From: a virus
IMG/VR virus record: IMGVR_UViG_3300045454_000060
Span: 1 to 64,000 of that record
Strand: one strand, 5' to 3'
DNA length: 64,000 nucleotides
Every line of letters starts with the position of its first letter. The first letter of the stretch is position 1. This document shows, in pieces, positions 3,235 to 49,603 of this stretch. The position numbers and the translations under genes are program-made. Under the pieces are notes generated by a model. It worked only from the letters and a program-made list of their open reading frames with translations. It did not search any database and had not been told where the DNA came from.

Positions 3235-3604
3235 GAACGGAACCCCGTCTGATGACCTGGAGAACCAGCAGATCGCTGATCCCGGCGCGCTTGATCATGT
3301 CGTTGGTGCCGCGACCGCCCGGAAAGGCGGCGACGAGATGAGGCTTGCCTTCGTCGAGCATGCGCTGATTGCGCACGAAGCCGGCGCGCAGCCCGTAGCG
3401 CATCCAGTTGGCGCGGTAGATCTCGAGCTGAATGCGACGCATCAGCGCCCATTCGCCGGCGGCGGTATCGACCCCGCGAGCGCCACCATGGATCAGCACG
3501 GCGATCGGCTTGATGGCGTGCAGGCGATCGAGCAGGTGGAAGATCTGCTGGCGCTCGGACTCGACGAGTCCGAAATCACGACCGCCGCAGACCAGCACCC
3601 TCAC
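3221..3604 (-). CDS. DUF2493 (SLOG-type) protein
   Basis: 127 residues beginning MRVLVCGGRDF, with IHGGARGVDTAAGEWA, a basic YRANW segment, NQRMLDEGKPHLVAAFPGGRGTNDMIK and a C-terminal extension. This is the DUF2493/YspA branch of the SLOG Rossmann fold, related to DprA and cytokinin-LOG proteins, which bind nucleotide-derived ligands. It starts with GTG at 3604, whose TGA overlaps the stop of the preceding gene (GTGA), so translation is coupled. The phage role is unknown; the family is frequent in phage and conflict operons as a candidate ligand sensor. Confidence 0.85.
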   Translation of the reverse strand: MRVLVCGGRDFGLVESERQQIFHLLDRLHAIKPIAVLIHGGARGVDTAAGEWALMRRIQLEIYRANWMRYGLRAGFVRNQRMLDEGKPHLVAAFPGGRGTNDMIKRAGISDLLVLQVIRRGSVHAHA

Positions 3605-3975
3605 AGGGGATCGCCCCGTCGTGCGATCTCGCGCAGCTCCTCGCGCGAGAGACGCCGCACATAGTCACGCGGATCACGCTCGGGCGAGCGCACGTCGCCG
3701 GGAACAATGCCGGCGGTGATTCTGGACATGTCCAGATGCGTCCGAAGATGCAGATCGCCCCGAGCGGTCGGGGCACTCCTGGGACCGACCAGCTCCTGCA
3801 TCGCGGCGTCCAGGCCGCGCCGCATGGACTCGAGACGCTGGGCGAGCTGCTGGCGTTCCTCGAGCAGCCCCTTCAGGAGCTCGACATCGCTCCAATGCAA
3901 GGCAAGCGGGCGCGTCTCGGGGTTCGAGACCACGCCAGCGAAACGCGCGACCAGATCCTGAAGTGCCGACTGCAT
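3601..3975 (-). CDS. Hypothetical helical protein, 124 aa
   Basis: First gene of the leftward operon that ends with DUF4031. I start at ATG 3975, preceded by GGAG about 9 bases upstream; the frame is open to 4092 but that part lacks a start signal. Residues about 25-60 (ELLKGLLEERQQLAQRLES) predict a coiled coil and the C-terminus is charged (RRLSREELREIARRGDP). No domain is recognised. The operator/promoter lies about 130 bp upstream at 4102-4111. Confidence 0.65.
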   Translation of the reverse strand: MQSALQDLVARFAGVVSNPETRPLALHWSDVELLKGLLEERQQLAQRLESMRRGLDAAMQELVGPRSAPTARGDLHLRTHLDMSRITAGIVPGDVRSPERDPRDYVRRLSREELREIARRGDPL

Positions 3976-4101
3976 GCGGGGTGCTCCATCACAACGGGGT
4001 GCGAGCGCGGGATGGAGGGAGGGAACTCCACGGGAAGTCTCGTGCCGGGCAGGAGGGGAGGGGACCCGGACACCCCGCGCTCGCAGTGCCATAATAGGCA
4101 G

Positions 4102-4111
4102 TCAGCGCTTA
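4102..4111 (-). promoter_or_regulatory. Dyad operator, leftward
   Basis: TCAGCGCTTA (one mismatch from the dyad) overlaps the stop of the HslV-like gene. Reading leftward, a -10-like TATTAT follows 5 bp later at about 4091-4096. It should drive the operon starting at 3975. Confidence 0.5.
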
Positions 4112-4729
4112 CTTCGCAACGGAGACGCGCGAAGATTTTCTTGCCCTGGGGCGGGGTGTCCGAGACGCGGGCTTGCCGCGCGCGATCGGGGCGAGATGGA
4201 ACACACTCACGTCCATGCCGGAGTAGATGTCGAGCTCGATGGCGATGTCGAGCGTGCGGCGCACCAGGCGCTCGGGGTCGGGCTCGCTCTCGATCAGCGC
4301 ACGGCCGGCGGCGAAGGCGAAGTCGCGCCCCGAGCCGGCACCCCAGACGATGCCGGGCGGGACGGCGTGAATCGACAGATCCGAGCAGAACTCCCAGATG
4401 CCGAAGGGGCTGGCGAGCACGATCGTCATCTCGCCCCATTGCGAGGGGCCTGGTCCCTCCGAGTGCGCCTCGAAGCCGTTCTTGGCAAGCACCTCGCGCA
4501 GACGCTCGGCGAACTGCAGCGGGTGCTCGAGGTTGCGGAACAGGAAATCGCGCGCCGCCTGCATCGACACCAGCACGGCATACTGTCCGGCCGAGCCGGC
4601 GGCCCAACCATTGTCGCCCAGCACCCACTTCGAGACCGGGCCGAGCTTGAGACCGCCGGCGCTGATCATGCCGTCGGAGCCGACCCAGGTGCCGCGTTCG
4701 GGCAGATGGTAGGCGGCGAGGGTGGTCAC
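4109..4729 (-). CDS. HslV/proteasome beta-like Ntn peptidase
   Basis: 206 residues. After the start, MTTLAAY puts Thr at position 2, as in HslV where Thr1 is the catalytic nucleophile after Met removal. GSDGMIS (Asp about 19) and the SKW Lys (about 34) match the Asp17/Lys33 positions of HslV. GSAGQYA matches its GFAGS turn and GAGSGRDFAFAAGRALIE matches its GSGGNYALAAARAL helix. The family hydrolyses peptides inside a dodecameric chamber, normally with the HslU unfoldase. No HslU is seen here, so it would need host HslU or act alone. It starts with GTG 4729 overlapping the stop of the kinase-like gene (GTGA). The last 30 residues are basic and low-complexity. I assign the family with good confidence and the activity by inference. 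Confidence 0.8.
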   Translation of the reverse strand: MTTLAAYHLPERGTWVGSDGMISAGGLKLGPVSKWVLGDNGWAAGSAGQYAVLVSMQAARDFLFRNLEHPLQFAERLREVLAKNGFEAHSEGPGPSQWGEMTIVLASPFGIWEFCSDLSIHAVPPGIVWGAGSGRDFAFAAGRALIESEPDPERLVRRTLDIAIELDIYSGMDVSVFHLAPIARGKPASRTPRPRARKSSRVSVAK

Positions 4730-5421: not shown

Positions 5422-5823
5422 TCATCTGGACGGACATGGCGGGGTCTCGCCGACCGCGAGCACAGGGATACCCGGCGTCTCCGCCTCGTCGAGATGCGGA
5501 TTGATTAGATGCCCCGCGATCCGGCGCCCGCGCTCGGGGCCGAGCCCCAGCTCGCCGGCTGCGCGCACGACCGCCTCGTAGAACGTGAGATTATCCTCGT
5601 GATCGCGCAACAGAATCGCGGCGGCCGTGACCAGCACGGCAGTCACCTGCGTCGTCTCGCTGGCCGCGAGACGGTCATCGGCTGGGATTCTGAGAATCCC
5701 CGCCGAATGGCAGGGAAGCACGAAGGCTGCATCATCGGGCCCGATGATCACCGCGCGAATCCCGGCCCAGCGAAAGACCGGGTTGGCCAAACCGATCAGA
5801 GCCCGACGAAACCAATGCCGCAT
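5422..5823 (-). CDS. Hypothetical protein, 133 aa
   Basis: No family recognised. The N-terminus (RHWFRRALIGLANPVFRWAG) is an amphipathic or weakly membrane-associated helix. A beta-rich part (RAVIIGPDDAAFVLP) and a helical, charged C-terminal half follow. ATG 5823 is used; an in-frame GTG at 5835 lies inside the operator dyad and is less likely. It is a single-gene leftward unit with its own dyad at 5832-5841. Confidence 0.6.
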   Translation of the reverse strand: MRHWFRRALIGLANPVFRWAGIRAVIIGPDDAAFVLPCHSAGILRIPADDRLAASETTQVTAVLVTAAAILLRDHEDNLTFYEAVVRAAGELGLGPERGRRIAGHLINPHLDEAETPGIPVLAVGETPPCPSR

Positions 5824-5831
5824 TGATCCAC

Positions 5832-5841
5832 TCACTGTTGA
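5832..5841 (-). promoter_or_regulatory. Dyad operator
   Basis: TCACTGTTGA immediately precedes the start at 5823. On the minus strand a -10-like TATGCT (about 5853-5858) lies upstream, so the dyad would cover the transcript start. Confidence 0.5.
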
Positions 5842-5901
5842 CTGCCTAGTCTAGCATAGACCCCGCGCGCTGTGGAGCAACGCGCGACACAGACGGCCCG
5901 A

Positions 5902-6168
5902 TCAGGGGACACGAAACTTGACCGGCCTGCCGGGGCGTCGCGGCTTGAACCCCACCTGCTTGATCTCCTGCGCGATCTCGGCGACGGAGCGGGAAATCAC
6001 CAGATACTCGACCACGCTGGAGCGCGGCAACCCGCTCAGCTTGGAGATCTTGGCGAGCTGCTCGCGGGTCAGACTGCTGACCCAGATCGTCGTGCTGGTC
6101 CCCTCCGACCCGGTGCGCTTGGTGCGCCGCTTGACGGGGGTTTCGGATGTATTCGCCGCCTCGATCAT
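5902..6168 (-). CDS. Possible ribbon-helix-helix DNA-binding protein
   Basis: 88 residues from ATG 6168; the frame is open to 6240 but overlaps the helicase gene there. The N-terminal 25 residues are basic (PVKRRTKR). The stretch TIWVSSLTREQLAKISKLSG, followed by PRSSVVEYLV, has the strand-helix-turn-helix pattern of Arc/MetJ-type RHH repressors. The C-terminus is basic (KPRRPGRPVKFR). It follows the helicase gene by 10 bp, so it is probably co-transcribed and coupled. It is a candidate regulator, perhaps of the window-wide dyads, but the XRE protein is the better candidate. Confidence 0.6.
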   Translation of the reverse strand: MIEAANTSETPVKRRTKRTGSEGTSTTIWVSSLTREQLAKISKLSGLPRSSVVEYLVISRSVAEIAQEIKQVGFKPRRPGRPVKFRVP

Positions 6169-6178
6169 GTTGTCGAGG

Positions 6179-7687
6179 CTAGGGGTGCTTCCATGACGTG
6201 TAGTCAAAGTCGCCTCCTTCCGGCAGGATGTTTTCGGCAAACCCAGGGGTCTGGAGCAGGATGGCGCGGCGCGTCAACGCATGCTCCTGCAGCGTGCGAT
6301 TGCCGGCATCGGCGAAATCCAGCACATGGCACAGATTGGGGCCGGTTTTCTTGGCCCTGAGGCCGCGCCCGATACGCTGGCGATGCGCCACCTCGGCCTT
6401 GCCGCCGCCAGCAAGCACGACCAGGCCGACCGCCGGCACATCCACCCCGACATCGAGAATGGTCGATCCGATCAGCGCCTGCAGCTCGCCCGAGGCAAGC
6501 GCACGCAGGGCGCGCTGACGCTCGTCGTTCTGGTGCTCGCCGAAGATGAAGGCCGTCTTGACCCCCGCATCCCTGAGCGCCCCGAGCAGGATTTCGCCGT
6601 GCTTGCGACGATTGATCAGAATGAGCGACGGCAGACCATAGGCGGCGGCGCGCCCCACCTCGAACACGATCACGCGATTGCGTTCCGGGTTCTCGACAAT
6701 GCCCAGGTCATAACAGGCGGGCCAGCGAGTTGAGCGCCGCAACCCTGGCGGGGCGGGCGCGTCGGCGATCTTGAAACGCGGCCGGGCCAGAATGCCGCGC
6801 TCGATCAGAAGCTGCTCCGAGACGTCGATGCCGATCGGCCCGAAACCCGCCATCAAACGCATATTCGCCTCGGCATCGGGGCGCATGAACGGGGTGGCGG
6901 TGAGCGCCAGACGGTAATGCGCGTTCAGGCAGTGCTGCAGGATCTCGAAATACTCGCCCCCGCCCGCCTCGTGCGCCTCCTCGCCGATCACGACCTCGAA
7001 GTAGCGCAGCAGCGCCAGCGTTCGCATGCGATCGGGGTGATTCTCCACCAGACGCGCGGCGAAGGTCTGCACCATGCCGATATTCACGCCGCGCCGCGGA
7101 TCCCACACCCCGTCGCCGATGAAGCCAGGGGTGAAGCCGGCGGCACGGAACCCCTCGGCCATCTGATGCGCAAGCACCGTGCGGGTGGTGAGGAACAGCG
7201 TCGGCCGGCGGATCGTGCCGACCGCCTGAACGGCGATGTTGGACTTGCCTCCTCCGGTCGCCACGCGCGCGATCATCCGCCCGTGCCGCAACAGCCTCCT
7301 GACCGTCTCAGACTGGTAATCATACCTGGGATCGAAGCCGAACCCCAGATAGTCCACGCTGCCGAGCACCGGGCCCAGGGGCTCAGGCGGAGGCTTCACC
7401 ACCACCCGCACGGAATGGCCGAGTCGGACCAATTCGCGCTCCACCACCGGCACAAACCCGGCCGGGAAGGTGCCGGTGCGGAAGTCGAAGAACGAGCTGC
7501 GCCCGTCCCAGCGGCGCGCCTTGAACGCCTCCGAGCGCTCATAGCCCTCGACCTGGTAGGAAAGCAGCTCGGAAACCGCGAGCTTCACCTCGCGCGAAGC
7601 GTCGAGCAGGCGCGCCGCGACCGCGTTGGCGGCCAGGCGCAGCGTCTCGCCGGTCGGCAGGGCTTGAGTGAGCGATGTCGGTTGCAC
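6179..7687 (-). CDS. UvsW-like superfamily 2 DNA helicase
   Basis: About 502 residues. Motif I is ATGGGKS (residues about 143-149), motif II is the DEAH-like EEAH (236-239), motif III is LTATP (262-266), and motif VI is HRQRIGRGLR near the C-terminus. The N-terminal 110 residues (WDGRSSFFD onward) match the UvsW/Rad25-type DNA-binding region. In T4, UvsW unwinds R-loops and branched DNA and switches replication from origin- to recombination-dependent mode. I start at GTG 7687 because GGGGGAG lies 7 bases before it and because the minus-strand -10 (7706-7711) lies inside the longer frame that opens at 7720. It is divergent from the ParB operon and shares one operator with it. Confidence 0.85.
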   Translation of the reverse strand: MQPTSLTQALPTGETLRLAANAVAARLLDASREVKLAVSELLSYQVEGYERSEAFKARRWDGRSSFFDFRTGTFPAGFVPVVERELVRLGHSVRVVVKPPPEPLGPVLGSVDYLGFGFDPRYDYQSETVRRLLRHGRMIARVATGGGKSNIAVQAVGTIRRPTLFLTTRTVLAHQMAEGFRAAGFTPGFIGDGVWDPRRGVNIGMVQTFAARLVENHPDRMRTLALLRYFEVVIGEEAHEAGGGEYFEILQHCLNAHYRLALTATPFMRPDAEANMRLMAGFGPIGIDVSEQLLIERGILARPRFKIADAPAPPGLRRSTRWPACYDLGIVENPERNRVIVFEVGRAAAYGLPSLILINRRKHGEILLGALRDAGVKTAFIFGEHQNDERQRALRALASGELQALIGSTILDVGVDVPAVGLVVLAGGGKAEVAHRQRIGRGLRAKKTGPNLCHVLDFADAGNRTLQEHALTRRAILLQTPGFAENILPEGGDFDYTSWKHP

Positions 7688-7734
7688 GGAATCTCCCCCG
7701 AGACTATAGTAAATCACCACTGATTGAACAACAA
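7682..7734. promoter_or_regulatory. Divergent promoters around one dyad operator
   Basis: The dyad TCACCACTGA (7714-7723) serves both directions. Leftward, TTGTTG (7734-7729), a 17-bp spacer containing the dyad, and TACTAT (7711-7706) form the helicase promoter. Rightward, TTGCAC (7682-7687), 17 bp and TATAGT (7705-7710) place the dyad just after the -10. Occupancy of one site would block both. Confidence 0.65.
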
Positions 7735-7737
7735 CAG

Positions 7738-8424
7738 ATGACGATCACATCTCCGAACCCTCTCGCGGTCACGCTGCGCGACCCGCACACCCTCGTGCCG
7801 GCGCCGTGGAATCCCAATCGCGCCACCCCCGAAGACGAGCGGAAGCTGGACGAGAGCATCCGCCGCTTCGGCATGTTCAAGCCGGTGATCTGCCGCGAAC
7901 TGCCGACCGGCGCGCTGCAGATCCTGGGCGGGCACTACCGCGTGCAGGCAGCGCTGCGCCTCGGCATCAGCGAGGTGCCGGTGATCAATCTCGGCACGGT
8001 CGATGACCGTCGCGCCAAAGAGATCACCCTGATCGACAACGGCCGCTATGGCCGGGACGACACCATGGCACTGGCGGGGCTGCTGGAGGAACTCGGCAGT
8101 CCAACCGAGCTCGCCCTGTTCATGCCCTACGACCTGGTCGAGATCGACGCGATCTGCGCCGCCAGCAAGATCGACCTGGAGACGCTCGGGCTTGTCGAGG
8201 AGCCCGAGGAGAAGGCGATCGAGGACAAGCCCGCCCGGGCGCCCAAGACCCACGAAATCCTGCGTCTGAAGGTCGCGCTGGAGGATGCCGAACGGGTGCG
8301 CCGCACCCTCGAGACGATCATGCAGGCGCAGGGCTTCACCGACAGCGACGCGCTCACCAATGCCGGCGACGCGCTGGTCTGGCTGATCAATGACTGGCTC
8401 GAGCAGACAAAAGGCGAGGGGTGA
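7738..8424 (+). CDS. ParB/Srx-domain protein 1
   Basis: 228 residues. The first 110 carry a ParB/sulfiredoxin-type N-terminal domain: NPNRATPEDERKLDESIRRFG, KPVI, then GGHYRVQAALRLG (residues 64-76), which corresponds to the nucleotide-binding ParB box 2. There is no canonical ParB central helix-turn-helix, so it is not a plain partition protein. The C-terminal half is helical (RLKVALEDAERVRRTLETI). It is the first gene of an eight-gene operon joined by start/stop overlaps. In phages such domains accompany DNA-modification enzymes; the role here is inferred from context only. ATG 7738 lacks a strong Shine-Dalgarno sequence. Confidence 0.8.
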   Translation: MTITSPNPLAVTLRDPHTLVPAPWNPNRATPEDERKLDESIRRFGMFKPVICRELPTGALQILGGHYRVQAALRLGISEVPVINLGTVDDRRAKEITLIDNGRYGRDDTMALAGLLEELGSPTELALFMPYDLVEIDAICAASKIDLETLGLVEEPEEKAIEDKPARAPKTHEILRLKVALEDAERVRRTLETIMQAQGFTDSDALTNAGDALVWLINDWLEQTKGEG

Positions 8425-8639
8425 TGCGTCTCAAGTTCGAGGATTGCCGCGACTGCCGCCACCGCAGACGGCCAGCGATCTGCCGCGACTGCGACTATGG
8501 CGAGCTGTTCGAGGACCGCGAACGCATGACCGTGGACGAGCTGTTCAAGCAGACCACCGCGCGCTTCGGAGACTCAGTCATCCATGACGATGACACCCAG
8601 GACGACGATCTGCCGCAGGACGAGAACGACGATGAGTGA
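8424..8639 (+). CDS. Small CxxC zinc-finger-like protein
   Basis: 71 residues. CRDC (about 8-11) and CRDC (about 19-22), separated by a basic RHRRRPAI segment, form a four-Cys knuckle likely to bind zinc. The rest is acidic, ending in a run of Asp/Glu. ATG 8424 overlaps the stop of the first ParB-like gene (TGATG), and the gene ends inside the next one, so it is translationally coupled to both. The function is unknown; a nucleic-acid or protein adaptor is plausible. Confidence 0.65.
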   Translation: MRLKFEDCRDCRHRRRPAICRDCDYGELFEDRERMTVDELFKQTTARFGDSVIHDDDTQDDDLPQDENDDE

Positions 8640-9303
8640 ACCCAACATCCGGCTGATGCCGCTCGAGTGGCTGCAGCCCTACGCCAAGAACGCCAAGCTG
8701 CACCCGCCGGAGGAGATCAAGCGTCTCGCCGCGACCATCAAGCGCTTCGGCTGGGATCAGCCGATCGTCGCCGAAGCCGACGGGACCATCATCAAGGGCC
8801 ACGGCCGTCGCCTGGCCGCGATCGAGCTCGGGCTCGACACGGTGCCGGTGTGGATTCGCAGCGATCTCAGCAGGGCCGAGGCCGATGCCGCGCGCATCGC
8901 CGACAACGCCGCCTTCGGCATGCGCTACGACACCGCGCTGATGCAGGAGGAGCTGCGCCGGCTGATGGCGGAGGCGCCGGAGATCTCGCTCGACGACCTG
9001 GCGCTTACCGACAAGGATCGCACCCTGCTCACCGAGCAGCTCGATCGCGCCGACGCCGACGCCATCCTCGACGAGATGGACAGCGAGATCGAGCGGCAGA
9101 AGAAGGAGGATGCCGAACGGGTCGAGAACGCGGATGCCGAGATGGTGCCGCTCGCCAAGGCGTTCGGCTTCGGCAAGATCCGCAAATCCGACGAGCGCGT
9201 GCTGATGAGCTTCATGGCCGAGGCCGAGGCGGCAACCGGCAAGGAAGGCTACGAGGCCTTCATCGGCGGGCTGAAGCTCGCCGCCGAGCGAGGGTTCGCG
9301 TGA
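8632..9303 (+). CDS. ParB/Srx-domain protein 2
   Basis: 223 residues. The N-terminal 100 match the ParB/Srx domain often fused to phage and plasmid DNA methyltransferases: LEWLQPYAKNAKLHPPEEI, IKRFGWDQPIVAEADGTIIK, then GHGRRLAAIELG (residues 56-67). The C-terminal half is a long charged helical region (EMDSEIERQKKEDAERVENA). It is distinct from the ParB-like protein 0.2 kb upstream; two different ParB/Srx proteins in one operon is unusual. It starts at ATG 8632 inside the end of the previous gene and ends overlapping the ABC ATPase start (GTGA). Catalytic methyltransferase motifs are absent. Confidence 0.82.
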   Translation: MSEPNIRLMPLEWLQPYAKNAKLHPPEEIKRLAATIKRFGWDQPIVAEADGTIIKGHGRRLAAIELGLDTVPVWIRSDLSRAEADAARIADNAAFGMRYDTALMQEELRRLMAEAPEISLDDLALTDKDRTLLTEQLDRADADAILDEMDSEIERQKKEDAERVENADAEMVPLAKAFGFGKIRKSDERVLMSFMAEAEAATGKEGYEAFIGGLKLAAERGFA

Positions 9304-9938
9304 TCTACACCATCACCAGGGGCTTCGAGACCCGCACCGAGCGCTCCGAGCGCGTGCTCGAAATCGCCGAAACCTTCGGCCTCGGGCTGAGCGACCGCCG
9401 GTTCTGGGTATTCCGCGACCTGAAGGTCGAGATCAGACAGGGCGAGGTGGTCTACATCACCGGCCAGTCCGGCAGCGGCAAGTCGCTGCTGCTGCGCGAA
9501 CTCTCGGCGCAGATGAGCGCCTCGGGGCTGCGCGTGACGAACATCGACCAGGTGGAGCTCGAGGATCGCGCCCTGATCGACCAGGTGGGCCGCTCGATGA
9601 GCGAGGCGATCGAGCTTCTGAGTCGCGCCGGCATCAACGACGCCTACCTGGCCATCCGCAAGCCGGCCGAGCTGTCCGACGGGCAGCGCTATCGACTGCG
9701 CCTGGCGAAGCTGATGCAGACCGAGGCGGATGTCTGGGTCGCCGACGAGTTCGGCGCCGTGCTCGATCGCGTCACCGCCAAGGCGGTGGCCTTCAACGCC
9801 CAGAAGCTCGCCCGCGCCCGCAAGGTGACGCTGCTGGTCGCCACCACCCACACCGATCTCGAAGAGGAGCTTGGACCCGATCTGCTGATCACCAAGCGCT
9901 TCCAGAACAGGGTTGAACTTGTCCGGAAGGATCAGTAA
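9300..9938 (+). CDS. Soluble ABC-type ATPase
   Basis: 212 residues from GTG 9300, overlapping the ParB-like stop. Walker A is GQSGSGKS (55-62), the ABC signature is LSDGQ (125-129), Walker B is VWVADE (145-150) and a switch His lies in ATTHTDLEE. There is no membrane segment and no permease gene nearby, so it is not a transporter. The closest match I know in layout is the ATPase half of COG2401 proteins (ABC ATPase fused to a predicted acetyltransferase). Here the acetyltransferase half appears to be the separate gene at 10917, in the same operon. Confidence 0.8.
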   Translation: MIYTITRGFETRTERSERVLEIAETFGLGLSDRRFWVFRDLKVEIRQGEVVYITGQSGSGKSLLLRELSAQMSASGLRVTNIDQVELEDRALIDQVGRSMSEAIELLSRAGINDAYLAIRKPAELSDGQRYRLRLAKLMQTEADVWVADEFGAVLDRVTAKAVAFNAQKLARARKVTLLVATTHTDLEEELGPDLLITKRFQNRVELVRKDQ

Positions 9939-9941
9939 GCG

Positions 9942-10184
9942 ATGACGATCAAGCAGAGACTGCGCCGCTATCTCAAGGAAATCGGACGCGGCGGCTCGCG
10001 CCTGCTGAACGCGATGTTCGGCGGGCCCGGGGACGTGACCTTCTCGGCCTGGAGCTGGGAGCTGGTGCTGCGCGGCAGCGCCTGGGGACGCTGGCGCGTC
10101 CGGGTGCTGGACGCGATCAGCGGCGAGAACCACTGCTACGACGCCTGGATCTGGCACCGCACGCGGGGGCTGATCGTCCGATGA
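9942..10184 (+). CDS. Small phage hypothetical protein
   Basis: 80 residues with a basic N-terminal helix (IKQRLRRYLKEIGRGGSRLL) and the pattern NAMFGGPGDVTFSAWSW, then HCYDA. This resembles a family of short phage proteins carrying NAL-GG-P-ET-S-R-W and a late HC pair. The function of that family is unknown to me. It begins 3 bases after the ABC ATPase and its last codons overlap the phosphatase start (ATGA). Confidence 0.6.
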   Translation: MTIKQRLRRYLKEIGRGGSRLLNAMFGGPGDVTFSAWSWELVLRGSAWGRWRVRVLDAISGENHCYDAWIWHRTRGLIVR

Positions 10185-10645
10185 ACCCGCAGGTCGTGAT
10201 CATGGACATCGACGGCACGCTCGCCAATGCCGATCATCGCCTGCACCACATCCGGGGCATGACCTCGGAGGAGGCGGAGCAGAAGGCGGAGGGCTGGCGC
10301 GCCTTCCTCGCCGCCGCCGAGCATGACTCGGTAAACGACGAGATCCGCTTCCTCAACAACGTGCTGCACGAGCACGCCCTGGTGTTCATCGTCACCGGGC
10401 GCAACGAGAACGATCGTGCGATGACGCTCGCCTGGCTGGCGCAGCACGGCATCCTCTACGACCGCATCTACATGCGCCGCGCCGACGATCGCCGCCCGGA
10501 CACCGAGGTGAAGCGCGAGGTGCTGGAACAGATCCGCGCCGAGGGGTTCAAGGTGCAGTTCGCGGTCGAGGACCGCGCTTCGGTGACCGCCATGTGGCGC
10601 GCCGAGGGGCTGCGCTGCCTGCAGGTCTGCGACGGCAAGTATTGA
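10181..10645 (+). CDS. HAD 3'-phosphatase (polynucleotide kinase C-domain type)
   Basis: 154 residues. The HAD nucleophile motif DIDGTLA (Asp 9 and Asp 11) lies at the N-terminus, VFIVTGRNEND is motif II, and the tail FAVEDRASVTAMWRAEGLRC with QVCDGKY closely resembles the C-terminal phosphatase domain of T4 Pnk (DDR-VVEMWR--G--C-QV--G-F). That domain removes 3'-phosphates from DNA and RNA ends. The kinase half of Pnk is absent. It overlaps both neighbours by 1-4 bases in the ParB/ABC operon. A role in end repair or in processing nucleotides for modification is inference. Confidence 0.85.
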   Translation: MNPQVVIMDIDGTLANADHRLHHIRGMTSEEAEQKAEGWRAFLAAAEHDSVNDEIRFLNNVLHEHALVFIVTGRNENDRAMTLAWLAQHGILYDRIYMRRADDRRPDTEVKREVLEQIRAEGFKVQFAVEDRASVTAMWRAEGLRCLQVCDGKY

Positions 10646-10920
10646 TGAGCTGGGCCGACACCCTGCTGGTGTTCGCCAGCTCCTACGCGCTGGTGTTCCT
10701 GCTGGTGATCCAGCAGCGCACGATCCAGGCCTCGCGTTACCTGATGGCGTTCCTGTTCTCGAGCCTGATCGGCGTGGTCAACACGCTGATCGTGCGCGGC
10801 GCGGTCGGCGACGACCTGACCTGGTTCCTGATCGCGCACTGCCTGGGCGGCTCGTCCGGGGTGGTGTGCGCGATCTGGCTCTATGACACCGTGCTCGGCC
10901 ACAAGGACAAGAGCGCATGA
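10645..10920 (+). CDS. Small three-span membrane protein
   Basis: 91 residues with three hydrophobic segments at about 7-25 (LLVFASSYALVFLLVI), 33-52 and 63-83, and a short basic tail. It resembles small phage membrane proteins of unknown function whose N-terminus reads W-D-LLVF-ASF-FVFL---QQ. ATG 10645 overlaps the phosphatase stop and the gene ends over the next start (ATGA), so it is part of the ParB/ABC operon. It is far from the lysis cassette, so I do not call it a holin. Confidence 0.65.
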   Translation: MSWADTLLVFASSYALVFLLVIQQRTIQASRYLMAFLFSSLIGVVNTLIVRGAVGDDLTWFLIAHCLGGSSGVVCAIWLYDTVLGHKDKSA

Positions 10921-12062
10921 ATTGGCAATGGCCAGCACCAGTCAGTCCGGAATTGGCACAGCGTCAATTCGAGGCGCTGAAGCGATCCGATGGCACCATG
11001 GACGATGACCTGAGCGCGATCTTCAGCGGCTCAGACTGCGCCATCCGGCGTGTTCCCAAACCACGTGCGCGCTTCCCGCTGCTCGAGGAGATGTGGGTCG
11101 AGCGCGGCGATCGAGCGGATTGGGACCTGCTGCACGGGCTTCACTACAAGATGCAGTCCACGCCGGTCGGGGCGAAATACTGGCGCGTGCGCTTCCGCGG
11201 CGAGACCATCGGTGTCTGCGTGTTCGGCATGTCGCGCCCGCTCTTGAAGGAGCGCCACGCGATCTTCCCGCGCCTGACCCCGGGGCAGGACACGCAGCTC
11301 ACCAACATCCACCGCTACCGCTACATCAACGACAACTTCCGGGTGATCGGGCGGCTGGTGGTGGACACGATGTTCCGCTCCGCCGGCGTGGCCTACCGCT
11401 TCGCCAACCTGGCCTCGCGCATGACCGGCTTCACCTACATCGAGATCCAGTCCTCGATGTCGAAATACAACCTGTTTGCCCAGCGTGCCGGCTTCACCTT
11501 TGTTCGGCCGATCCGCTCGCCCAACTACGACAAGGGGCTGCGCTTCATGCGCCGCTTCTTCGCGGCGCATCCTGGCGATCAGGAAGCACTGATGGAGGAG
11601 TTCGCGCGTTTCCCGCCCGCCATGCAGAAGAAGGTCGAGCGGGAGCTGAAGGCCTTCTACTACGACCATTCGCCGCTGGAGAAGACCGGCTCGCGGCGCT
11701 TCTACAGCGATCGGGTGGTGGACAATTGGGGGGTGCGCCGCACCATCTCGAAGATCCAGGGGCTCTGCTTCGCCAGCCCGCTCTACGGGCTCTACAAGAA
11801 CCCCGACGCGGTCGGGCGCGCCGGCGCGAGCTGGGGCGGGGATCTGCCCGCTCGTCTGCCGCTGCTCGCCTTCGACCTGCAGGCGCCCGAACAGCCCCTG
11901 GCACTGGCGCGGCTCGACAAGGTTCCGGGTTGGGGCGAGCTGCAGGCGGCTCTCGCCACGCACCCTGAATGGGGTGCGCCGACGCGGCTCCCGGAAGGTT
12001 TCCTGGAGGCGGAGGACGATGGCGAGGAGCTGCAGGATCTGCAGGAGGTAAGTCATGCGTGA
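10917..12062 (+). CDS. GNAT-like acyltransferase, COG2401/Mom-related candidate
   Basis: 381 residues. A central region (about 60-190) reads LHGLHYKMQSTPVGAKYWRV, GETIGVCVFGMSRPLLKER, INDNFRVIGRLVVDTMFRSA and IEIQSSMSKYNLFAQRAGF, a GNAT-type core with the GVCVFG strand and the final YNLF-AGF helix. The same sequence style occurs in the acetyltransferase part of COG2401 ABC-ATPase fusions. The Mu Mom DNA-modifying enzyme also has a GNAT fold, so transfer to DNA is a reasonable hypothesis but unproven. The C-terminal 130 residues are of unknown type. It is the last gene of the ParB/ABC operon and the start overlaps the membrane-protein stop. Confidence 0.65.
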   Translation: MNWQWPAPVSPELAQRQFEALKRSDGTMDDDLSAIFSGSDCAIRRVPKPRARFPLLEEMWVERGDRADWDLLHGLHYKMQSTPVGAKYWRVRFRGETIGVCVFGMSRPLLKERHAIFPRLTPGQDTQLTNIHRYRYINDNFRVIGRLVVDTMFRSAGVAYRFANLASRMTGFTYIEIQSSMSKYNLFAQRAGFTFVRPIRSPNYDKGLRFMRRFFAAHPGDQEALMEEFARFPPAMQKKVERELKAFYYDHSPLEKTGSRRFYSDRVVDNWGVRRTISKIQGLCFASPLYGLYKNPDAVGRAGASWGGDLPARLPLLAFDLQAPEQPLALARLDKVPGWGELQAALATHPEWGAPTRLPEGFLEAEDDGEELQDLQEVSHA

Positions 12063-12095: not shown

Positions 12096-12344
12096 ATGAG
12101 CCCGAAAATGAAACGGGTGCTGAAGCTGGTGGCGGCGGCACCCTCTGGGAAGGAGCTGAGCCTTGATGATCTCATCAGGGTTCTGGGAGAGGGTGCCAGC
12201 AGGCAGGCGATGCAGTCCACCATCCGCTACCTGGAAGGGAAGTATCTCCTGGAGAGGGTCTATGAGACCCGTGGTGGCAAGGTTCGCATGGTGCTGAGGC
12301 CTACCCCGAGGGGAAGTGCCATGGCTGCCGCGCTGGAGAGGTAA
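12096..12344 (+). CDS. Possible winged-helix DNA-binding protein, 82 aa
   Basis: 82 residues starting after a good GGAGAGG (about 8 bases before ATG 12096). The order helix (KRVLKLVAAA), helix (SLDDLIRVLG), helix (RQAMQSTIRYLEGKYLLERV), then a basic wing (RGGKVRMVLRPTPRG) is typical of a winged helix. It sits alone just before the packaging and head genes under its own dyad promoter, so it may regulate them. No named family is recognised. Confidence 0.65.
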   Translation: MSPKMKRVLKLVAAAPSGKELSLDDLIRVLGEGASRQAMQSTIRYLEGKYLLERVYETRGGKVRMVLRPTPRGSAMAAALER

Positions 12345-12687
12345 TTCCTGGGGGAGATTCAATGAGTTAGAGAGCATGGTTTGCGATTCTTGTTGATTTT
12401 CCTGGGAGGGTGTTGAGATTCTTGAGTGTTTTCAATGGGTTGGAGAAAGATCGAAACCTTGGCTGCAACGATGTCTTCGGGCTAAGTTTGTAGTATTTAT
12501 GTATATATATTATATATATAATACTTATATATCTTACGTAGAAAGAGGGTGTTTGGCTTCAAGGGGCAGGGACGCAAAAATCTCACTTAGCGCTGAGTTA
12601 GCCCCTTGATGTGGCATTTCTGCCACAGGTATAGGTCAGTCAGCCGTGAGTGTGTTATGATGTTGCGCAGCAGCGCCAGAGAACGCA
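12345..12687. other. AT-rich gap before the terminase genes
   Basis: No gene is seen. The stretch 12484-12540 is almost pure A/T with alternating TATATA runs, which is extreme for this GC-rich element. It is followed by an inverted repeat (12560-12567 with 12601-12608), two dyad operators and a 7-bp hairpin (12610-12627). Being directly before the small terminase gene, it could be the packaging site, a replication site or a late-promoter region. Confidence 0.6.
12587..12649 (+). promoter_or_regulatory. Dyad operator pair before terminase
   Basis: TTAGCGCTGA (12587-12596, one mismatch) and TCAGCCGTGA (12640-12649) flank a TGTGGCA-TTTC-TGCCACA hairpin (12610-12627). A -10-like TATGAT follows the second site at about 12655. 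Confidence 0.6.
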
Positions 12688-13332
12688 ATGAGTGACGCGA
12701 ACCAGGACAAGACCGAACTTGACGCGGGAGAGGGCAGGCCTGCCCGGCCCATGCGCAAGCTGTTCCCGAAGGAATGGCTCGAGATCGTCGGCATGGCCAA
12801 GTCCGGCGTGCCGGTCGAGAAGATCGCCAAGAGCTTCGGCGTCCAGCCTTCCACGATCTACAAGGGCCTGAAGCGGCGCAACATCACGATCGGCGCCTAC
12901 ACGCCCTCGGCCGCCGAGGTGCATGAGAGCGCCGAGCGGCGCGAACTGATCGCCAGGATCAAGGAGACCAAGGACAAGGACTACCGCTTCACCGAGTTCC
13001 TGCAGCGCCAGGTGGTCACTCTGATCGCCGAGCAGCAGAAGGAGAAGCGCCCCTTCGCCGCCGTGATCGACGACGTCAAGGCGCTCAAACTGGCGCTCGA
13101 CGCGGTGCGCTCCGGCACCGACAACAAGTGGAAGATCCTCGGGCTCGACAAGGAGAACGACGACGCCGACAAGGAGCTGCCGGAGCTGCCGCTGCGCGAG
13201 CTCACCGAGGACGAGATCGCCGCGATTCGCGACCGCCAGATCATGGAGGATGGCGGCGAGGCGCTCGAGGCGCTCGATGGCGAGGACGAGGGCGAGATCG
13301 TCGAGGAGTCCGGCGAGCCGGACGAGGACTGA
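12688..13332 (+). CDS. terS: Terminase small subunit-like protein
   Basis: 214 residues. LFPKEWLEIVGMAKSGVPVEKI, then AKSFGVQPSTIYKGLKRR (about 27-66), is a helix-turn-helix of the resolvase/HTH_23 type, as in many small terminases. The middle is helical and the C-terminal 55 residues are strongly acidic. Position directly before the large terminase, with TGA next to its ATG, supports the call. The small subunit binds the packaging site and hands DNA to TerL. Identification rests on context plus the HTH. Confidence 0.75.
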   Translation: MSDANQDKTELDAGEGRPARPMRKLFPKEWLEIVGMAKSGVPVEKIAKSFGVQPSTIYKGLKRRNITIGAYTPSAAEVHESAERRELIARIKETKDKDYRFTEFLQRQVVTLIAEQQKEKRPFAAVIDDVKALKLALDAVRSGTDNKWKILGLDKENDDADKELPELPLRELTEDEIAAIRDRQIMEDGGEALEALDGEDEGEIVEESGEPDED

Positions 13333-14598
13333 ATGCCCGCGCTCGCCGCGCGTCCGGCCGTCGTCGGCCTGGCGCTCCATCCGCGTCAGAATCAGGTCTT
13401 CCAGGCGCCGCATCGCTTCAAGGTGGTGGTTGCCGGGCGGCGCTGGGGCAAGTCCAAACTCGCCCTTGCCGAGCTGCTGCGCGCCGCCAAGAAGCCGCGC
13501 CAGCTCGTCTGGTATGTCTGCCCGACCTACCGCATGGCGAAGCAGATCATGTGGGTGGATCTCATGGACACGATCCCCCGCGCCTGGATTCGCAAGTCCA
13601 ACGAGACCGCGCTCGAGGTGCTGCTGGTCAACGGCTCCAGGATCTGCCTGAAAGGTGCGGACAAGGCCGATACTCTCCGCGGCGTCGGCATTCACTACCT
13701 GGTCATGGACGAGATGCAGGACATCCGCCCCGAGGTGTGGGACGTGGTGCTGCGTCCTACGCTCGCCTCGACGCGCGGGCGTGCTCTGTTCGTCGGCACG
13801 CCGAAATCCTACAACCACTTCTACGAGCTCTATCAGCGCGGCCAGAAGGAGATCAACCAGAAGACCGGCCAGTGGAGGAGCTGGCAGTTCCCGACCATCA
13901 CCAGCCCCTTCATCCCGCTCTCCGAGATCGAGGCGGCGCGTGCCGACATGGACGAGCGCTCCTTCCGCCAGGAGTTCGAGGCGACCTTCGAGTCGATGTC
14001 CGGGCGGGTCTACTACAACTTCTCGCGCACGATGCATGTCGGGGATTACCCGTTCAACCCCAAGCTGCCGATCTGGATCGGTCAGGACTTCAACGTCGAT
14101 CCGATGTGCTCGGTCATTCTGCAGCAGCAGGTGAACGGAGAGATCTGGGCGGTGGATGAGATCTACCAGCCCAACTCCAATACCGACGAGGTGATCGACG
14201 AGATCGAGCGTCGCTACTGGCGCCACATGAAGCAGATCACGGTGTTTCCTGACCCTGCCGGCGCCAATCGCTCGACGCGCGGGCGAGGGGAGAGCGACAT
14301 GGACATCTTCCGCGAGCGCGGCATCCTGCGCCTGCGCTACCGCCGCAAGCACCCCTCGGTGACCGATCGCGTCAACGCGGTCAACCGCATGCTGCGCACC
14401 GCCGACGGCACGATCCGCCTGCGCGTGAACGGCGCCTGCCGGCATCTGATCGAGAGCCTGGAACAGACCCTCTACAAGAAGGGCTCGCCCGAGATCGACA
14501 AAAGCCAGGGGCTCGAGCACATGACCGATGCGCTCGGCTACCCGATCGAGCTGCTGTTCCCGCGCCGGCGCATCGAGCCTGTGGGCGTTTCGATCTGA
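13333..14598 (+). CDS. terL: Terminase large subunit
   Basis: 421 residues. Walker A is GRRWGKS (35-41), Walker B is YLVMDE with Asp 126 and Glu 127, and the C-terminal RNase-H-like nuclease starts at IGQDFNVDP (first Asp about 252), with a further acidic pair in the later part (VFPDPAG). The protein is the ATP-driven DNA packaging motor and headful or cos nuclease. The length is normal. It begins immediately after the small subunit gene and is followed by the portal gene under a new dyad promoter. Confidence 0.95.
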   Translation: MPALAARPAVVGLALHPRQNQVFQAPHRFKVVVAGRRWGKSKLALAELLRAAKKPRQLVWYVCPTYRMAKQIMWVDLMDTIPRAWIRKSNETALEVLLVNGSRICLKGADKADTLRGVGIHYLVMDEMQDIRPEVWDVVLRPTLASTRGRALFVGTPKSYNHFYELYQRGQKEINQKTGQWRSWQFPTITSPFIPLSEIEAARADMDERSFRQEFEATFESMSGRVYYNFSRTMHVGDYPFNPKLPIWIGQDFNVDPMCSVILQQQVNGEIWAVDEIYQPNSNTDEVIDEIERRYWRHMKQITVFPDPAGANRSTRGRGESDMDIFRERGILRLRYRRKHPSVTDRVNAVNRMLRTADGTIRLRVNGACRHLIESLEQTLYKKGSPEIDKSQGLEHMTDALGYPIELLFPRRRIEPVGVSI

Positions 14599-48551: not shown

Positions 48552-48935
48552 TCAGAACCCCAGATGGCGCAGATATCGGTCAAGCGCCTCCTCGACGATG
48601 GCCTGCTTTTCGCGCCGCGCGTGGAACGCGGCCTGGCGCAGACGCTCCTGCAGGCTCGCGGGCAGACGCACCGAGACGGTGATGCGGGGTTCGATCGGTG
48701 CCGGGTCGGGCGCTGCCGCGCGTGCCCCCTCCCCCCCGCGCGCCCTGGATGTGGGGTTGTGGGGCTCGTAGAGTGCCTCTGGTGCGTCCGCGCGGGTTGT
48801 CCCCTCCCCTCCCCCATCGTGTTCCAGCAGCACTCTGGGCGCTTCCTGGGGCAGTGCTGGCACGGGAACCGCAGCGCCCTTGGTGGCGCGCGGGATGGCG
48901 AGATCCTCGAGGGTCGGTCGCTTGCTGGCGCTCAT
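48552..48935 (-). CDS. RHH protein, ParA partner
   Basis: 127 residues from ATG 48935 (GGAAGGTG upstream), overlapping the parA stop (ATGA). The first 80 are Pro/Ala-rich and disordered. The C-terminal RITVSVRLPASLQERLRQAA and FHARREKQAIVEEALDRYL form a ribbon-helix-helix domain. Small RHH proteins after ParA usually bind the centromere and stimulate the ATPase (ParG/omega type). It ends at the origin, so centromere sites may lie among the origin repeats or upstream of parA. Confidence 0.8.
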   Translation of the reverse strand: MSASKRPTLEDLAIPRATKGAAVPVPALPQEAPRVLLEHDGGGEGTTRADAPEALYEPHNPTSRARGGEGARAAAPDPAPIEPRITVSVRLPASLQERLRQAAFHARREKQAIVEEALDRYLRHLGF

Positions 48936-49603
48936 GCCGGCACCTTCCTGTTGACGAGCTGGCTGGCTGGCAAGCTGGCGGGCTTGCCGTTCAGACGGTT
49001 GCTCAGATAGCGCCACAGCTCGGCGAACTCCCGTGCCGGCGTGCCCTTCGGGTCGATTTCGACCGCGGTGCGACCGTCGATCCCGCTCTCGCGGATCTTC
49101 GTGCTGAGCGAGATGATCGCTGGGGCGACCGTGCCGTGCTGGCTGAGCTTGATCGCGGTCTGTGCGGTCAGCCTGGCGCGCCGATTGGCGCCGTTGATGA
49201 TGAACACCACGGGTTTGCCTTCGCTCTCCACCAGGTCGATCGTGCCGCCGACCGCCCGCAGGTCGTCCGGTGAGGGCAGTGTTGGCACCAGCACCAGGTC
49301 GGCCAGGTGGATCATCGCGCGCACCAGCTCCGAGGCTTGCGGCGGCGTGTCGATCATGGCGTAGCGGTAGCCGCTCTGGCGCAGGCGGGCCAGGATCGCG
49401 GGCATCTCGGCGAGGCTGGACTGCACGAAATCCGGCCGCTCCTCCGCCCTGGCGTTCCACCACTGCGACAGCCCGCCCATCTCGTCGGCGTCGATCAGGG
49501 CGACCGGCCCCTCCCCTGCCCTCTCCGCCTCGACCGCCAGATGGCGCACCACGGTCGTCTTGCCCGCGCCACCCTTGCGGCAGGCCACCACGATGGTCTT
49601 CAT
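48932..49603 (-). CDS. parA: ParA partition ATPase
   Basis: 223 residues from ATG 49603. The deviant Walker A KGGAGKTT (10-17) follows MKTIVVACR. ALIDADEMGGLSQWW is motif A', YAMIDTPPQ is Walker B, and VLVPTLPSPDDL follows. It lacks the long N-terminal domain, so it is a type Ib ParA as in small-ParA/RHH systems. It segregates low-copy replicons over the nucleoid. It forms an operon with the RHH gene and lies just outside the origin. Confidence 0.9.
   Translation of the reverse strand: MKTIVVACRKGGAGKTTVVRHLAVEAERAGEGPVALIDADEMGGLSQWWNARAEERPDFVQSSLAEMPAILARLRQSGYRYAMIDTPPQASELVRAMIHLADLVLVPTLPSPDDLRAVGGTIDLVESEGKPVVFIINGANRRARLTAQTAIKLSQHGTVAPAIISLSTKIRESGIDGRTAVEIDPKGTPAREFAELWRYLSNRLNGKPASLPASQLVNRKVPA

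Follow-up and report, generated by a model that had tools for sequence, protein, structure and literature searches.

The opening 64 kb (the window, meaning the whole stretch analysed here) of the 102,455-base IMG/VR virus record IMGVR_UViG_3300045454_000060 carry an eight-gene operon just upstream of the terminase genes. Four of its genes, encoding two ParB/Srx domain proteins (ParB1 and ParB2), a soluble ATP-binding cassette (ABC) ATPase and a protein of predicted GNAT fold, form a core that is probably an ATP-dependent machine for the modification of phage DNA, a reading that is well supported by association. Judged from its sequence the source virus is of the SSU5-like, phage-plasmid type; the nearest annotated relatives by the GNAT protein are SSU5-like phages of Rhizobium, Pseudomonas, Stenotrophomonas, Klebsiella, Salmonella and Escherichia. 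Groups of SSU5-related phage-plasmids have been described (PMC12977533).

The operon and its conserved core

Eight plus-strand open reading frames (ORFs) are chained from 7738 to 12062, with junctions of -1, -8, -4, +3, -4, -1 and -4 bases, and the GC content at third codon positions is 0.82-0.96 across all eight. The ATG of the membrane protein gene, at 10645, shares one base with the stop codon of the phosphatase gene. The operon, the genes that follow it and a distant ParA gene are as follows, with E values for family matches.

7738-8424 (+): ParB1, ParB/Srx domain protein, core (Pfam ParB_N 5.9e-10; phrog_723 3e-57)
8424-8639 (+): small Cys-rich protein, possible zinc knuckle, optional
8632-9303 (+): ParB2, ParB/Srx domain protein, core (phrog_930 5.3e-61)
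9300-9938 (+): soluble ABC ATPase of 212 residues, predicted N-terminal half of a split ABC::GNAT protein, core (ABC_tran 6.3e-15; phrog_293)
9942-10184 (+): small protein, rare passenger (phrog_3342)
10181-10645 (+): HAD phosphatase of PNKP 3'-phosphatase type, variable passenger (HAD_PNKP 9.9e-27)
10645-10920 (+): small hydrophobic membrane protein, holin-like, variable passenger (phrog_7045 4e-13)
10917-12062 (+): putative GNAT acyltransferase, predicted C-terminal half of a split ABC::GNAT protein, core (phrog_886 9.5e-105 over residues 43-331)
12096-12344 (+): small protein, possibly winged-helix (phrog_900)
12688-13332 (+): terminase small subunit (TerS)-like helix-turn-helix protein, linked neighbour (Pfam search)
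13333-14598 (+): terminase large subunit (TerL), linked neighbour (phrog_2 1.2e-51)
48932-49603 (-): ParA ATPase of a separate partition module (48552-49603), with a small ribbon-helix-helix-like partner

Gene neighbourhoods were mapped in 80 viral and 19 bacterial genome contigs encoding the GNAT protein, and in annotated phages. Upstream genes were counted in the 85 loci with at least 4.5 kb of upstream sequence and downstream genes in the 93 loci with at least 3 kb downstream. Some of these loci are near-duplicates, the 100 GNAT proteins reducing to 69 long representatives at 85% identity, and because loci were picked by GNAT similarity the counts apply to this phage group and not to all phages. 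ParB1 and ParB2 were each present in 85/85 loci, the ABC gene was missing from none, and TerS and TerL followed in 93/93. The order ParB1-ParB2-ABC-GNAT-TerS-TerL was found in every relative with enough flanking sequence, which argues that the operon is more than a product of chance. The same order is seen in the annotated elements SSU5, nickie, RHph_X66, ANB28, ST13-OXA48phi12.3, RHEph10, RHph_N1_10, BUCTxx99 and Cyrano, the last with directly overlapping ABC and GNAT genes, and a phrog_900 gene lies downstream in 81 of the 93 relatives. The eight chained genes of the original prediction are thus borne out by the ORF junctions, the high third-position GC content and the recurrence of the core gene order.

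Not every gene in the chain belongs to the core. Only 7 loci had the phosphatase, 4 the membrane protein and 1 the small ORF at 9942, against 45/85 for the Cys-rich gene. The first three were rejected as core components on these counts. Variable genes occupy the gap between ABC and GNAT, which in this genome holds those for the phosphatase and the holin-like protein and in Rhizobium phages a DUF2829 gene. Pfam and PHROG matches confirmed that the operon encodes two ParB/Srx proteins, a soluble ABC ATPase and a Pnk-type phosphatase, the last without a kinase domain. The membrane protein is present as claimed and can be refined to a holin family match, whereas the supposed zinc knuckle, although its N terminus is rich in Cys, matched no Pfam or PHROG family.

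Matches to the GNAT protein were found in 905 of 72,556 plasmid records, many of them from Klebsiella, Escherichia, Acinetobacter, Enterobacter and Salmonella. A copy of the locus also lies in the Halomonas sulfidaeris chromosome, where the GNAT match is split over several frames (5728-6848 of locus L110). Two further features flank the operon. A UvsW-like DEXH helicase gene (6179-7720, minus strand) diverges from it and occupies the same position in SSU5, nickie and the Rhizobium and Stenotrophomonas phages. Between the phrog_900 gene and TerS is an island that is very AT-rich (tatatatatta...; 12497-12560) in a GC-rich genome, and is possibly a promoter, cos/pac or other packaging-related site.

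The putative acyltransferase and the split ABC::GNAT protein

The 10917 protein belongs to no Pfam family, a phmmer search gave no match among PDB sequences at E 10, and a profile of the protein gave only chance matches to annexins. An AlphaFold model built from 54 aligned proteins of the window and contigs had a mean predicted local distance difference test score (pLDDT) of 84. GNATs led the Foldseek matches to this model in the PDB, the best being HP0935 (E 1.6e-4), with the S124A mutant of Mu Mom (8bv8) at rank 4 (E 4.8e-4) and NAT10 and TmcA lower in the list. Among viral models, a Mom ranked third and the Leptospira LE4 ABC-GNAT protein matched with a root-mean-square deviation of 3.5. 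The model thus assigns a GNAT fold to the 10917 protein, in agreement with the GNAT-like character first ascribed to it. Its acyl-CoA loop, R154-G157-A159, is intact. R154 and G157 are invariant in 54/54 divergent homologues, residue 159 being G, A or S, and the loop pattern [RQ]xxGx[GA] is present in 99/100 homologues. Also invariant are HYK 76-78, R146, D150, Y160, N164 and EIxSSMSK 176-183 (EIQSSMSK here). This conservation would mark the protein as an active acyl-CoA-dependent enzyme.

Walker A, signature, Walker B, D-loop and H-loop motifs can all be recognised in the ABC ATPase and recur in nearly every one of 109 homologues. The genes around it include none for a membrane partner of the transporter type. 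In addition to phrog_293 the ATPase matches a fused family, phrog_11143 (2.2e-21). A tblastn search with the ATPase recovered proteins of this family, some 370-410 residues long and with the ABC domain N-terminal to a GNAT domain, from unrelated phages; these are tied to MK0520/COG2401 through depositor annotation names only ("MK0520 ABC-type ATPase fused to acetyltransferase"). Profile comparison with hhalign aligned the split and fused ABC domains with 99.8% probability (E 1.4e-27) and the split and fused GNAT domains with 95.5% (E 1.5e-8), or 87.7% (E 3.4e-6) with a deeper alignment. On these sequence comparisons the ATPase and the GNAT are assigned as the split halves of an ABC::GNAT protein, as had been suggested. 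Because the two domains lie on two genes here (9300-9938 and 10917-12062) and not in one polypeptide, the pair is classed as a split variant and not as a member of the fused family.

The fused proteins share the genomic setting of the split pair. Of the 68 loci with enough upstream sequence, 65 have ParB as the gene immediately before ABC::GNAT, and a terminase gene lies downstream in 25/44, a figure obtained with a narrow terminase model that misses divergent terminases; Pfam found a terminase in 9 of 10 checked loci missed by that model. Terminase adjoins ABC/GNAT in phages of Pasteurella, Leptospira, Gordonia, Lactococcus and Pseudoalteromonas, and named examples of ABC/GNAT with ParB are Pasteurella Pmp13, Leptospira LE3, Gordonia BiggityBass and Lactococcus P335, in the last of which ABC and GNAT are likewise separate, overlapping genes. 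As the same ParB-ABC::GNAT neighbourhood occurs in unrelated phages, it has been formed or kept across very different hosts.

ParB partners and the function of the core

ParB2 is a relative of the ParB domain that phrog_498 proteins carry fused to a DNA methyltransferase (2.1e-29), and tblastn with ParB2 recovered many phage genes annotated as DNA modification methylases. To avoid circularity, the partners of such ParB proteins were surveyed in loci gathered by ParB similarity alone, with the ParBs of P335 and phage Appa as queries; since these come from ABC/GNAT and Mom neighbourhoods, a mild bias remains. Among 38 long ParB ORFs, 37 matched ParB_N and 26 also carried an N6_N4 DNA methylase domain. 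The gene following the 21 shorter ParB ORFs encoded a TET-associated glycosyltransferase in five cases (four independent clusters), an N6_N4 methylase in three, a 3'-phosphoadenosine-5'-phosphosulfate (PAPS) reductase in three (one cluster), an ABC protein of the fused family in two (one cluster), Mom in one, or another methyltransferase; several of these genes belong to no recognised family. ParB seems to accompany phage DNA-modifying enzymes quite generally, as the original prediction held. Loci L246, L260, L264, L265 and L268 each have a stand-alone phage ParB followed by the TET-associated glycosyltransferase, and the L249 group has the PAPS reductase-like protein. No N6_N4 DNA methylase was found in the genome under study.

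It is this association that speaks most strongly for modification of DNA by the ABC/GNAT pair. The interpretation first put forward stands as regards the GNAT, the split ABC::GNAT and the ParB partners, but not as regards the three passenger genes at 9942-10920 as components. Several points weigh against DNA modification. GNATs also acylate proteins, small molecules and RNA, and the best structural match in the PDB, HP0935, is a protein acetyltransferase. The sequence link to Mom is weak (hhalign 7.9% for the split GNAT against seven Mom proteins, not significant), and the RxxGxG loop is absent from Mu Mom. About one third of the genes adjoining stand-alone ParBs have no recognised function, and gene neighbourhood is evidence of association, not of activity. 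A nucleoside analysis of SSU5-like virion DNA was not found in the literature.

The main rival is acylation of a protein coupled to packaging, in which the GNAT would acetylate terminase, ParB, a capsid protein or RNA polymerase and the ABC/ParB proteins would link it to packaging. The constant position beside TerS and TerL in the SSU5-like set, the frequent terminase neighbour in the fused set and the match to HP0935 are all consistent with this, and RNA polymerase is a target of phage GNATs such as Rac (PMC7824862). The slot beside ParB is otherwise filled, however, by DNA methylases, TET-associated glycosyltransferases, PAPS reductase and Mom, and by no protein-modifying enzymes, and we consider protein acylation unlikely. 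A role in defence or superinfection exclusion, with ABC/GNAT acylating tRNA or proteins against competing phages, is more doubtful still. The ABC ATPase does have weak matches to ABC ATPases of defence systems (mad3, 5.3e-14), and a Klebsiella SSU5-like plasmid reduces phage infection and plasmid uptake (PMC8969562), but PADLOC gave no match for the GNAT and matched the ParBs to no more than the ParB component of a type II methylase model, and the module is a core one that adjoins the packaging genes instead of lying in a variable island of defence genes. PADLOC gave no match for the phosphatase either.

The phosphatase, the ABC ATPase and the terminase neighbourhood could alternatively point to a processing of DNA ends, in packaging or repair, by the phosphatase, an SbcC/Rad50-like ATPase and a ParB nuclease, as the original prediction had allowed. 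With the phosphatase, membrane protein and small ORF outside the core, this idea loses its main support: the phosphatase is a rare passenger and the constant partner is the GNAT, while an ATPase of 212 residues is too short for the SbcC coiled coil and the operon has no SbcD-like gene. DNA-end handling is hence very improbable. Least probable of all is that the two ParBs serve partition of a phage-plasmid, with ABC and GNAT as unrelated companions. SSU5-like phages are kept as plasmids (PMC12977533), and ParB1 and ParB2 are the only ParB_N proteins found in the 102-kb record. Yet neither matches a partition-type domain beyond ParB_N, no helix-turn-helix follows ParB_N and no ParA gene adjoins them, and the ParB-ABC::GNAT-terminase order recurs in unrelated phages. 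The ParA gene is some 36 kb distant and has beside it a small partner of its own that, judged by eye from the sequence, is ribbon-helix-helix-like; it was on account of this separate module that the partition reading was rejected.

If the core does modify DNA, the ParB proteins may load onto phage DNA as a nucleotide-dependent clamp or adaptor, and an ABC dimer could spend ATP to hold or distort the duplex so that bases are exposed. The GNAT would then move an acyl-type group from acyl-CoA to an exocyclic base amine, adenine N6 or cytosine N4. Modification would probably occur late, before or during packaging, such that virion DNA is shielded from host restriction. The full proposal, that two ParB clamps and the ABC ATPase deliver DNA to the GNAT for a novel, packaging-coupled base modification that is core to the SSU5-like group, is offered tentatively, as one that is less likely than not to hold.

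A GNAT coupled with an ABC ATPase was predicted earlier to make an uncharacterised acyl modification of a DNA base, as cited from Iyer et al. (2013) in PMC7824862. No experimental test of an ABC-coupled GNAT system was found in the literature, nor any discussion of this ABC/ParB/acetyltransferase module in the literature on SSU5-like elements. As far as the literature searched shows, the split two-ParB form, the strict terminase linkage, the core status in SSU5-like elements and the ParB-partner survey are new. If DNA is modified, a major class of phage-plasmids carries a hidden and probably new nucleobase chemistry, which could explain their passage of restriction barriers. The predicted ABC-coupled GNAT systems would then also be open to direct test in laboratory E. 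coli, and there would be an explanation for the presence of ParB genes next to so many different DNA-modifying enzymes.

Comparison with Mom and other systems

Mu Mom, which modifies adenine in DNA, appears to share the predicted GNAT fold and, by alignment, has HY, R and S residues at a spacing like that of the GNAT described here. The HY pair in the first helix aligns at Mom 58-59, fused 231-232 and split 76-77, the Arg in strand 4 at 111, 279 and 146, and the Ser after strand 5 at 146, 315 and 179, respectively. The fused family is closer to Mom by hhalign (63%, E 7e-5). The 10917 protein matches only phrog_886 and not the Mom family (PF25680/phrog_1384), and Mu Mom has no ABC partner. On modelled fold and sequence, then, the Mom likeness that was first noted appears to extend to the fold and some residues but not to family membership. 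Phage Appa has a true Mom gene that overlaps its ParB gene (3469-4728 of locus L237), so that Mom there, like the GNAT of our operon, has a ParB neighbour. Mom adds a glycine-like group. A tRNA-Gly(ccc) gene lies 33 bases beyond ParB/Mom in Appa, on the other strand.

The phrog_498 fusions place the same type of ParB/Srx domain beside a DNA-modifying enzyme, but this is an S-adenosylmethionine-dependent methylase where the window has a GNAT. The nearest mechanistic parallel is provided by TmcA and NAT10, ATP-dependent acetyltransferases in which an ATPase module and a GNAT together acetylate a nucleobase amine, cytidine N4, as is proposed here for DNA; their substrate is RNA, however, and their ATPase is a helicase rather than an ABC protein. 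In the Dpd DNA base-modification system, which pairs the tRNA-guanine transglycosylase (TGT) DpdA with DpdB, a ParB-like ATPase likewise acts (PMC12839542), but the chemistry is base exchange and neither a GNAT nor an ABC protein takes part. The GNAT-ABC ATPase system predicted by Iyer et al. has, in the account given of it, the same coupling of GNAT and ABC as in the window. Finally, the fused ABC::GNAT proteins (phrog_11143, COG2401-type) have the same two domains in the same order and in the same context, with ParB upstream and terminase downstream, and the system described here differs from them in that ABC and GNAT are separate genes with others in between, and in having a second ParB gene.

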